From: Pseudoxanthomonas sp. CF125
GTDB lineage: Bacteria; Pseudomonadota; Gammaproteobacteria; Xanthomonadales; Xanthomonadaceae
Length of the DNA: 64,000 nt
Direction of reading: 5' to 3'
NCBI RefSeq assembly: GCF_900104085.1
Contig: NZ_FNLD01000004.1
Location: 62,001 to 126,000, forward strand
In this document: positions 4,962 to 62,508 of the stretch, piece after piece
Layout of the letters: every line of letters begins with the position of its first letter
How positions within the stretch are numbered: position 1 is the first letter of the stretch
Position numbers and translations under genes: made by a program
Notes under the pieces: model-generated
What the model was told of the DNA's origin: nothing
What the model saw: only the letters and a program-made list of their open reading frames with translations
The model's database searches: none

Positions 4962-4980
4962 AATCCGTTTTGCTCGAGTC

Positions 4981-5084
4981 GTCATCCCAGCGAACGCTGG
5001 GATCCACTTTGACTTTGCCCTTGAATGTCGAACAGCAAAGGCAAAAGCAAGATCAAAATGGATCCCAGCTTTCGCTGGGATGAC
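4981..5084. repeat. GTCATCCC-type inverted repeat (family C, copy 1)
   Basis: Arms GTCATCCCAGCGAACGCTGG (4981-5000) and its near-perfect complement ending at 5084 flank about 55 bases. Related copies are at 20755-20836 and 60014-60112, where the arm is GTCATTCCCGCGAAGGCGGG or a close variant. It lies after purF and runs to within 12 bases of the DUF455 start codon. Confidence 0.85.
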
Positions 5085-5096
5085 GATTCATTTTTC

Positions 5097-5925: not shown

Positions 5926-5997
5926 GTAGGAGCGACGTGAGTCGCGAATATTCACACGCGGAGGTTTCGCGACTTACGTCGCTCCTACGCGCCCCTA
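5926..5997. repeat. GTAGGAGCGACGT inverted repeat (family A, copy 1)
   Basis: The arm GTAGGAGCGACGTGAGTCGC at 5926-5945 is complemented by GCGACTTACGTCGCTCCTAC ending at 5988. A degenerate outer arm (CCCCTAC, 5992-5998) follows and supplies the TAG of lpxH. It lies between convergent DUF455 and lpxH, a position suited to a two-way terminator. Other copies are at 8803, 20121 and 54562. Confidence 0.88.
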
Positions 5998-6741: not shown

Positions 6742-6758
6742 GGGTCAATTGTAGGTTC

Positions 6759-6856
6759 TTGTAGGAGCTGCGTAAGCTGCGACCGAAAACGGTCCGGTTA
6801 CGGCAAGCCGTCCCCGCGCCCCATTCCTGCGGTCGCAGCTTACGCAGCTCCTACAA
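6759..6856. repeat. GTAGGAGCTGCGTAAGC inverted repeat (family A variant)
   Basis: TTGTAGGAGCTGCGTAAGCT begins at 6759 and its complement (GCAGCTTACGCAGCTCCTAC) ends at 6854. The core of about 45 bases contains an ACGGTCCG stretch. It fills almost the whole gap between divergent lpxH and gltX, so promoters for both genes must lie in or beside it. The outer GTAGGAGC is shared with family A. Confidence 0.85.
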
Positions 6857-6892
6857 GGTAAAATTGCCGGATTCCGCTTTATTGGACCTCAA

Positions 6893-8802: not shown

Positions 8803-8871
8803 GTAGGAGCGCGTAGGAGCGACGTAAGTCGCGAACCCATACAGAATATTCGCGACTTACGTCGCTCCTAC
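8803..8871. repeat. GTAGGAGCGACGT inverted repeat (family A, copy 2)
   Basis: GTAGGAGC occurs twice in tandem at 8803 and 8813, then GACGTAAGTCGCGAA. The complement GCGACTTACGTCGCTCCTAC ends at 8871. It separates convergent zur and the MFS gene. CTA 8868-8870 in the right arm is the TAG stop of the MFS gene on the reverse strand. Confidence 0.9.
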
Positions 8872-13562: not shown

Positions 13563-13635
13563 TTTGTAGAGCCGAGCTTGCTCGGCTGCTCTTCGCGCAG
13601 GATCAAAAGCAGCCGAGCAAGCTTGGCTCTACAAA
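13563..13635. repeat. GTAGAGCCGAGC inverted repeat (family H)
   Basis: TTTGTAGAGCCGAGCTTGCT starts at 13563. Its complement AGCAAGCTTGGCTCTACAAA ends at 13635. It lies between convergent THX and hutI genes, 14 bases before the hutI stop. Only one copy was seen in the window. Confidence 0.85.
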
Positions 13636-20120: not shown

Positions 20121-20217
20121 GTAGGAGCGGCGCTGGAACGACGTAGGAGCGACGTGAGTCGCGACCGAAAGCAACGGCATGTGCTCGCGACTCACGTCGC
20201 TCCTACGCCGCTCCTAC
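20121..20217. repeat. Nested GTAGGAGCG inverted repeat (family A, copy 3)
   Basis: Two nested pairs are visible. The outer GTAGGAGCGGCG (20121-20132) matches CGCCGCTCCTAC (20206-20217). The inner GTAGGAGCGACGTGAGTCGC (from 20143) matches GCGACTCACGTCGCTCCTAC ending at 20206. It separates the convergent LytTR gene and ogt. The right arms encode the last codons and the stop of ogt. Confidence 0.9.
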
Positions 20218-20724: not shown

Positions 20725-20754
20725 TTCAATCCTCCAGCATAAAATAGATGAATC

Positions 20755-20836
20755 GTCATTCCCGCGAAGGCGGGAACCCAGCGACTTTCGCTCTTTGCAA
20801 GCAAAGGCACTGGATTCCCGCCTTCGCGGGAATGAC
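20755..20836. repeat. GTCATTCCCGCGAAGGCGGG inverted repeat (family C, copy 2)
   Basis: GTCATTCCCGCGAAGGCGGG starts at 20755 and its complement ends at 20836 (CCCGCCTTCGCGGGAATGAC). It sits between ogt and the alkA fusion, 28 bases after the alkA stop. Confidence 0.88.
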
Positions 20837-20863
20837 GAGTAATTGTTTTGAGGTGTTCATCTT

Positions 20864-22454: not shown

Positions 22455-22604
22455 CCGTTCGTGGTGAGCCTGTCGAAAGCCCGGCTCGTGGCGAGTTCTT
22501 CTAATCCGTTCGTGGTGAGCTTGTCGAACCACGCTTTTCGCGGAGTTTTTCAGCAACGGCAAACAGCCGCCAAGAGCATGGTTCGACAAGCTCACCACGA
22601 ACGG
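22455..22604. repeat. CCGTTCGTGGTGAGC inverted repeats (family G, copy 1)
   Basis: Two direct copies of CCGTTCGTGGTGAGC (22455 and 22506) are followed by the complement GCTCACCACGAACGG (ending 22604), each adjoining TGTCGAA. It fills the 280-base gap between the divergent alkA side and the phosphodiesterase end. The same family recurs at 62355-62508. Confidence 0.85.
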
Positions 22605-22641
22605 AATTGAGGGACGATTACCGGGCCGATATCCGGAAGCT

Positions 22642-25838: not shown

Positions 25839-25870
25839 GGGCCAAGTCTGCCACGACACCTGTCATTTCT

Positions 25871-25945
25871 GTGGGAGCGCCGTCCCGGCGCGAGCTTTTG
25901 CCTTACCGGGCGGGGAGAGCTCGCGCCGGGACGGCGCTCCCGCCG
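25871..25945. repeat. GTGGGAGCGCCGTCCCG inverted repeat (family B, copy 1)
   Basis: GTGGGAGCGCCGTCCCGGCG at 25871 pairs with CGCCGGGACGGCGCTCCCGC, around CGAGCTTTTGCC...GAGCTCG. It lies between divergent thuA and hutU and ends about 35 bases before the hutU start. Copy 2 is at 34757. Confidence 0.88.
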
Positions 25946-25978
25946 ATAATGGGGTTACATCTGCAACTGGATTTCCTC

Positions 25979-34717: not shown

Positions 34718-34756
34718 TGGGAATTCCTCTGCAGATTCACGGATGAAGAAGGAGGC

Positions 34757-34836
34757 GTGGGAGCGGCGTCCCGCCGCGAGCTTTTGGCGCAAACTCTCAC
34801 TCAGAGGAAGAGCTCGCGGCGGGACGCCGCTCCCAC
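34757..34836. repeat. GTGGGAGCGGCGTCCCGCCGCG inverted repeat (family B, copy 2)
   Basis: GTGGGAGCGGCGTCCCGCCG at 34757 pairs with CGGCGGGACGCCGCTCCCAC ending at 34836, around CGAGCTTTT and AGAGCTCG. It lies between the small membrane gene and the VOC gene. Copy 1 is at 25871. Confidence 0.88.
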
Positions 34837-34858
34837 GAACGGCGCCCCCACGACCTGT

Positions 34859-54561: not shown

Positions 54562-54633
54562 GCAGGAGCGACGTGAGTCGCGAATCCACAACGCCGAAAC
54601 TTTCCCTTGCTTCGCGACTCACGTCGCTCCTAC
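54562..54633. repeat. GCAGGAGCGACGT inverted repeat (family A, copy 4)
   Basis: GCAGGAGCGACGTGAGTCGC at 54562 pairs with GCGACTCACGTCGCTCCTAC ending at 54633. It lies between convergent genes. CTA 54630-54632 is the reverse-strand TAG stop of the GIY-YIG gene. Confidence 0.9.
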
Positions 54634-59971: not shown

Positions 59972-60013
59972 ACCAAGGCGTCGGTAGAATCAGGCCGTCG
60001 CCAACTCAACGTC

Positions 60014-60112
60014 GTCATCCCCGCGAAGGCGGGGACCCAGCGACTTTGCTTTTGCCTTTTACTCGTAAGCTTAAAGCGGAAGTCACTGGGTTCCCGCCTT
60101 CGCGGGAATGAC
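60014..60112. repeat. GTCATCCCCGCGAAGGCGGGG inverted repeat (family C, copy 3)
   Basis: GTCATCCCCGCGAAGGCGGG at 60014 pairs with CCCGCCTTCGCGGGAATGAC ending at 60112. It lies between deaD and rluF, 38 bases before the rluF start. Confidence 0.88.
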
Positions 60113-60149
60113 GGACCCTATTTGCCAGCGCTAACTGCGAATTTCATCC

Positions 60150-62354: not shown

Positions 62355-62508
62355 CCGTTCGTGGTGAGCCTGTCGAACCACGCCTTTGCCACAAGCCCGC
62401 GCTTGCGACACGTCGCTTCATCGCGAAAAGCGTGGTTCGACAGGCTCACCACGAACGGTTCGGCGGGTTAATCCACGAGCCGGTTCGGCAGGCTCGCCAC
62501 GAACGGGA
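62355..62508. repeat. CCGTTCGTGGTGAGCCTGTCG repeats (family G, copy 2)
   Basis: CCGTTCGTGGTGAGCCTGTC at 62355, its complement GACAGGCTCACCACGAACGG ending near 62459, and a third partial unit to about 62506. It fills most of the 247-base convergent gap 62272-62518. Copy 1 is at 22455. Confidence 0.87.

Follow-up and report, generated by a model that had tools for sequence, protein, structure and literature searches.

Four copies of a palindromic repeat were found in a 64,000-nt stretch of the Pseudoxanthomonas sp. CF125 genome (the whole stretch is called the window here), and in three of them a TAG at the end of the repeat is also the stop codon of the adjoining gene. The locus raises the question of how a repeat between genes comes to supply the end of a protein. 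The initial annotation offered two answers: a bidirectional terminator whose end had evolved to provide stops, and an element that had inserted at gene ends and trimmed them.

All four copies were recovered as pairs of inverted inner arms (Table 1). Of the start positions first given, 5926 and 54562 proved to be inner arms, whereas 8803 and 20121 fell in degenerate outer units that lie outside the arms. The stops of the MFS, ogt and GIY-YIG genes were indeed the TAG of the GTAG arm end. The lpxH stop (5995-5997) fell in an outer unit that departs from GTAGGAGCG at a single position, and the last four residues of ogt, VGAA, were repeat-coded, both as annotated. The left arm of REPIN 4 starts with GCAG instead of GTAG. 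The labels MFS, ogt, GIY-YIG, TatD and ThiF were assigned within this analysis; zur, gltX, lpxH and TcdA are provisional gene names, in part carried over from the initial annotation.

Table 1. Repeat elements and outer units in the window
Feature	Position	Strand	Remark
REPIN 1, two inverted GTAG-REP arms (22 nt, 19-nt spacer)	5926..5988		lpxH stop in right degenerate outer unit
Degenerate outer unit GTAGGAGCGC, left of REPIN 2	8803..8812	+	Outer match, 0 mismatches, at -10
REPIN 2	8813..8871		Right-arm TAG 8868-8870 is the stop of the minus-strand MFS gene
Degenerate outer units left of REPIN 3	20121..20142	+	
REPIN 3	20143..20206		Right-arm TAG 20203-20205 is the stop of minus-strand ogt
Right outer unit of REPIN 3	20207..20217	-	With G at 20206 encodes the ogt end VGAA
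REPIN 4	54562..54633		Right-arm TAG 54630-54632 is the stop of the minus-strand GIY-YIG gene

Screening of the genome (4,216,411 bases in 6 contigs) with the 22-nt arm, GTAGGAGCGACGTNAGTCGCGA, at up to two mismatches gave 78 + 76 = 154 copies, and the reversed control pattern gave none; the number of arms is far above chance. The genome is that of a Pseudoxanthomonas close to P. sacheonensis: its Fur-family protein is 99% identical to the one in strain DSM 19373, and the next matches are from other members of the genus. Gene context was studied in a sample of 874,148 bases, made up of the window, 64 stretches around repeat clusters and 15 control stretches (20 kb each); arms mismatched in the core were caught within these stretches only. 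Once duplicates, and elements within 1.5 kb of either end of a stretch, had been removed, 74 elements remained, of which 66 were a plus arm followed by a minus arm, 7 were single arms and 1 had three arms. The two inverted REPs with a spacer that form the common unit of a REPIN were thus present in 66 of the 74. The arm carries GTAG at the 5' end of an imperfect palindrome within the 20-40 bp known for the GTAG-REP superfamily, and the high copy number and mostly extragenic location of that superfamily were also seen (154 arms; 72 of 74 elements outside called genes). The repeat, named family A, is a GTAG-tagged REP family that occurs mostly as inverted doublets (REPINs). GTAG was preceded by C at 104 of 132 ends and by T at 19, a bias that may reflect a target preference or a longer mobile unit.

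A RAYT gene was detected at C5:144289-144765 (NF047646, 132.6 bits against a cut-off of 80), one of six PF01797 matches in the genome. It is flanked by family A arms at C5:144192 (+) and C5:144775 (-), the arrangement of a cognate RAYT between the REPs of its own family. Across 38 genomes of the genus, exact arms numbered 17-304 in 24 and 0-2 in 14. The exact arm core was found near 21 of 30 RAYT loci of the genus, on both sides and inverted in 19 of those 21. Arm-rich genomes (24 in all) supplied every one of these 21 loci, and no exact arm core lay near any of the six loci examined in arm-poor genomes; in the arm-rich genomes G005, G022 and G023, no flanking arms were seen at the RAYT locus examined. 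The RAYT at C5:144289-144765 presumably mobilises family A.

The genome, with its six PF01797 matches, holds several REP families. Within the window, a different repeat around CGTCATTCCCGCGAAGGCGGGAA forms inverted pairs at 4976-5089, 20748-20843 and 60013-60113, another family has inverted repeats CCGTTCGTGGTGAGCCTGTCGAACC at 22455-22615 and 62355-62506, and further REP-like inverted pairs of the types TGTAGAGCCGAGC and GTGGGAGCGGCG are located at 13563-13635, 25868-25946 and 34756-34837. Another GTAG repeat pair, GTAGGAGCTGCGTAAGCTGCGACC (6758-6857; arms of 28 nt, 100% complementary), lies between the divergent genes lpxH and gltX, a placement avoided by family A.

The placement of family A relative to genes was determined with a purpose-written codon-usage ORF scorer, which called 825 genes (85% coding). 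The 74 elements comprised 36 convergent, 35 tandem, 1 divergent and 2 intragenic cases, compared with 38 convergent, 176 tandem and 34 divergent junctions among 248 control gene junctions in the 15 control stretches. Convergent sites were enriched (Fisher p 7e-9) and divergent sites depleted (p 0.002), and the elements accordingly show the position near the 3' ends of convergent or unidirectional ORFs that is typical of GTAG-REPs. One element counted as convergent (L136:3948-4084) is really tandem, because the ORF scorer missed the adjoining rayt gene. The initial annotation placed the repeat only between convergent genes, and this holds for all four copies in the window; the "only" fails in the wider sample, where the near-equal convergent and tandem counts mark the four-out-of-four result as a small-sample effect on a real bias. 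The gaps between elements and the 107 adjoining gene 3' ends were mostly 1-27 nt, seven ends with gaps over 350 nt, probably due to missed genes, being retained in the counts. None of the 37 adjoining 5' ends was closer than 12 nt. This gap distribution supports the proposed insertion near gene 3' ends. The two intragenic cases were a single arm in frame within a RecD-like helicase gene (659 aa, RecD_N, AAA_19; L124:4001-4022, G000:C3:680379-680400) and two overlapping family A arms, together forming a palindrome of 38 bp, within the gene for a cobalamin-dependent methionine synthase (903 aa read; L159:4001-4038, G000:C6:520306-520343).

Of the 107 gene 3' ends beside elements, 17 took their stop codon from an arm: the TAG of GTAG served 14 of them, and a TAA 12 nt deeper served the other 3. 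Stop donation by the repeat arm, described in the initial annotation, is supported; the stop overlap is real but concerns a minority of ends. Read inward, the arm is GTAGGAGCGACG(TA or TG)AGTCGCGA. Frame 2 meets TAG at once, frame 1 meets TAA or TGA at +12, and frame 3 is open; the frame-1 stop is present in the A and G variants, which make up 134 of 142 arms, and the exit arm has almost no stops. Overlap of genes with arms was confined to the two offsets that coincide with an arm stop, -4 (14 ends) and -15 (3 ends), while offsets 0 to 25 held about 2.3 ends per nt.

Among the same 107 ends, 46 had TAG as their stop, compared with 40 of 255 control genes (p 8e-8), and TAG was still in excess at the ends that stop outside the arm (32 of 90; p 1e-4). 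Part of this remaining excess is explained by outer units, since 7 TAG stops fall in them; for 17 of the 24 TAG stops lying 0-37 nt away, there is no outer-unit explanation at up to two mismatches. Matches to GTAGGAGCG with up to two mismatches occurred within 40 nt outside paired elements at 37 of 132 ends, where windows at a distance of 200-600 nt predict about 7; for 27 of the 37, the distance to the inner arm was 10 or 11 nt. These degenerate tandem units of 10-11 nt, GTAGGAGCGNC, flank at least 27 of the 132 ends, with a match on both sides in 7 of 66 elements.

The ends of eight genes were compared with those of their homologues, and 231 homologue ends with at least 80% of the query matched were retained. 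The usable sequences were 26 of 81 for MFS, 36 of 81 for lpxH, and 20-30 for each other set, taken from the best 30 of 38 genomes. Among the 231 ends, 22 stopped in an arm (up to four mismatches), these being non-independent events, 36 had an arm nearby and 173 had none within about 60 nt. Four related species used different stops at one site of the MFS end: the CF125 gene stops at the arm TAG; that of P. sacheonensis at a TAA in an extra 11-nt degenerate unit, GTAATTGCGTC; and in P. yeongjuensis and P. gei, the reading frame closes at the arm's internal TAA after the tails VGAT and VGAA. With one unit more at this site in P. sacheonensis than in CF125, outer units are apparently added or dropped in steps of 11 nt. 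In ogt, all 25 REP-free homologues (among the best 30 of 38 genomes) stopped at TGA, 1-2 residues past DLF, and the CF125 gene and that of its nearest relative extended to VGAA-TAG. The gene at locus L150 likewise had TGA in 25 of 25 REP-free homologues from the best 30 of 38 genomes, and homologues of both genes that end in an arm use TAG. For GIY-YIG, 6 of the best 30 of 38 genomes stopped in the arm (3 TAG, 3 TAA), and 4 of the 30 kept TGA with an arm just beyond.

The species series fits landing behind the stop with later capture better than it fits trimming, in which elements would insert into the last codons and arm stops would mark truncated genes. Measured against the median REP-free homologue, in alignments whose C-termini match loosely, the CF125 proteins were longer in ogt (+7 residues), GIY-YIG (+4), the L150 gene (+4), MFS (+1) and TatD (+1), and shorter in the L146 gene (-3) and the TcdA-like ThiF gene (-7 from a scripted anchor, 2-3 residues by eye). 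With five of seven genes longer, trimming as the rule was not borne out; the two shorter genes are what trimming would produce, and some trimming or alignment error is possible on their account. Simulated insertion into control gene ends did yield arm stops, with 33% ending at TAG, 30% at the +15 stop, 8% inside the element and 30% beyond. However, it gave TAG and +15 stops in about a 1.1:1 ratio and about 37% read-through, whereas the observed ratio was 14:3 (p 0.014) and read-through was seen in at most 2 of 19 cases, the intragenic ones (p 0.010). Because of these departures, insertion with immediate use of the arm stop is insufficient; the ratio is steeper than simple insertion allows, so selection or target preference must be added. 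Trimming is accordingly an unlikely general account.

The arm stops are instead probably explained by REPINs that are moved by the RAYT, come to rest behind gene ends and capture the reading frame when a stop is lost. The between-species comparison suggests that the element lands just past the native stop, and elements behind gene 3' ends would survive, whereas purifying selection would presumably eliminate those that cause read-through or interrupt conserved sequence. Later, a base substitution, or an indel in the DNA separating gene from element, would destroy the original stop (TGA in most cases), and the gene would then extend by a few codons and be caught at the arm TAG or with a short repeat-coded tail such as VGAT. 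The arms have the sequence for this: when the native stop was read as sense at the 66 ends lying 0-40 nt from an element, the next stop was the arm TAG at 19 and the +15 stop at 12, so that the arm would catch 31 of the 66; the next stop came before the arm at 8, elsewhere in the element at 7 and beyond it at 20. The median extension after stop loss was 10.5 residues, against 38.5 with the element removed and 32 in control genes (n = 246). That the GTAG end evolved to provide stops, as the initial annotation proposed, is unneeded, because GTAG is a tag common to REPs of many species. A translational safety-net role in this G+C-rich genome, helping to retain the copies and speeding the turnover of stop codons, is improbable; it would build on the closure of two of three frames by the arms and the short tail after stop loss, a capacity that is a property of the sequence.

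Two further readings concern the RNA. The hairpins might make the 3' end of the mRNA more stable or hold up ribosomes on stop codons, and such a function would keep elements within about 15 nt of stops. The predicted hairpins were strong (-52 to -76 kcal/mol, z -7.5 to -10.7 in 5 folds), many gaps here are below 16 nt, and E. coli REPs at most 15 nt from a stop are described as stalling ribosomes in the available part of PMC12306157, which cites this. Avoidance of promoters and coding sequence predicts the close placement equally well, however, and such a role is possible though somewhat doubtful. The canonical bidirectional intrinsic terminator of the initial annotation has in its favour a strong, symmetrical, G+C-rich hairpin between convergent genes, but half of the elements sit between tandem genes and T-rich tails were not in excess: directly after the hairpin, 4 of 132 ends had an 8-nt window with 5 T or more, where control intergenic DNA predicts 5.4. 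With no T-run excess after the hairpins, the intrinsic form is unsupported and highly improbable. A terminator scan listed none of the three elements in its range; as it accepts loops of up to 8 nt, it would have overlooked them in any case.

Compared with known systems, the phenomenon is known and family A is a new family member. GTAG REPs, according to the available part of Di Nocera, De Gregorio and Rocco (2013, PMC3733652), lie at convergent or unidirectional genes, their termini often provide TAG stops, and some REPs occur inside genes of other species, including recBCD; here, an arm lies in a RecD-like helicase gene. That part of the text contains no count of stop donation against expectation and no comparison of orthologues, and the host here is Pseudoxanthomonas; the stop-capture evidence is a modest increment on that work. 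The REPINs of Bertels and Rainey (2011, PMC3116915) likewise consist of two inverted REPs with a spacer that form one long hairpin and are associated with a RAYT; their host is Pseudomonas fluorescens SBW25, and the words "stop" and "convergent" are absent from the part of that text available. The Xanthomonas RAYT-REPs Xaxo and Xcam, in the accessible part of Nunvar et al. (2010, PMC2817692), match family A in having the head GTAGGAGCG, then a short palindrome and CGCGA. They share with family A the GA between head and palindrome, which the same source part describes as peculiar to Pseudomonas and Xanthomonas RAYT-REPs, and differ in the palindrome, which is GCGACGT-N-AGTCGC here. A search of the REP literature for Pseudoxanthomonas gave no title about such repeats.

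The overlap of stop codons with family A is best seen as a side effect of mobile hairpins of a known class rather than as a new regulatory device. It offers a countable route by which mobile DNA would set protein ends, landing behind a stop and catching the frame upon stop loss, and the ogt, MFS and GIY-YIG species series are good material for the question of whether such elements buffer the loss of stop codons.
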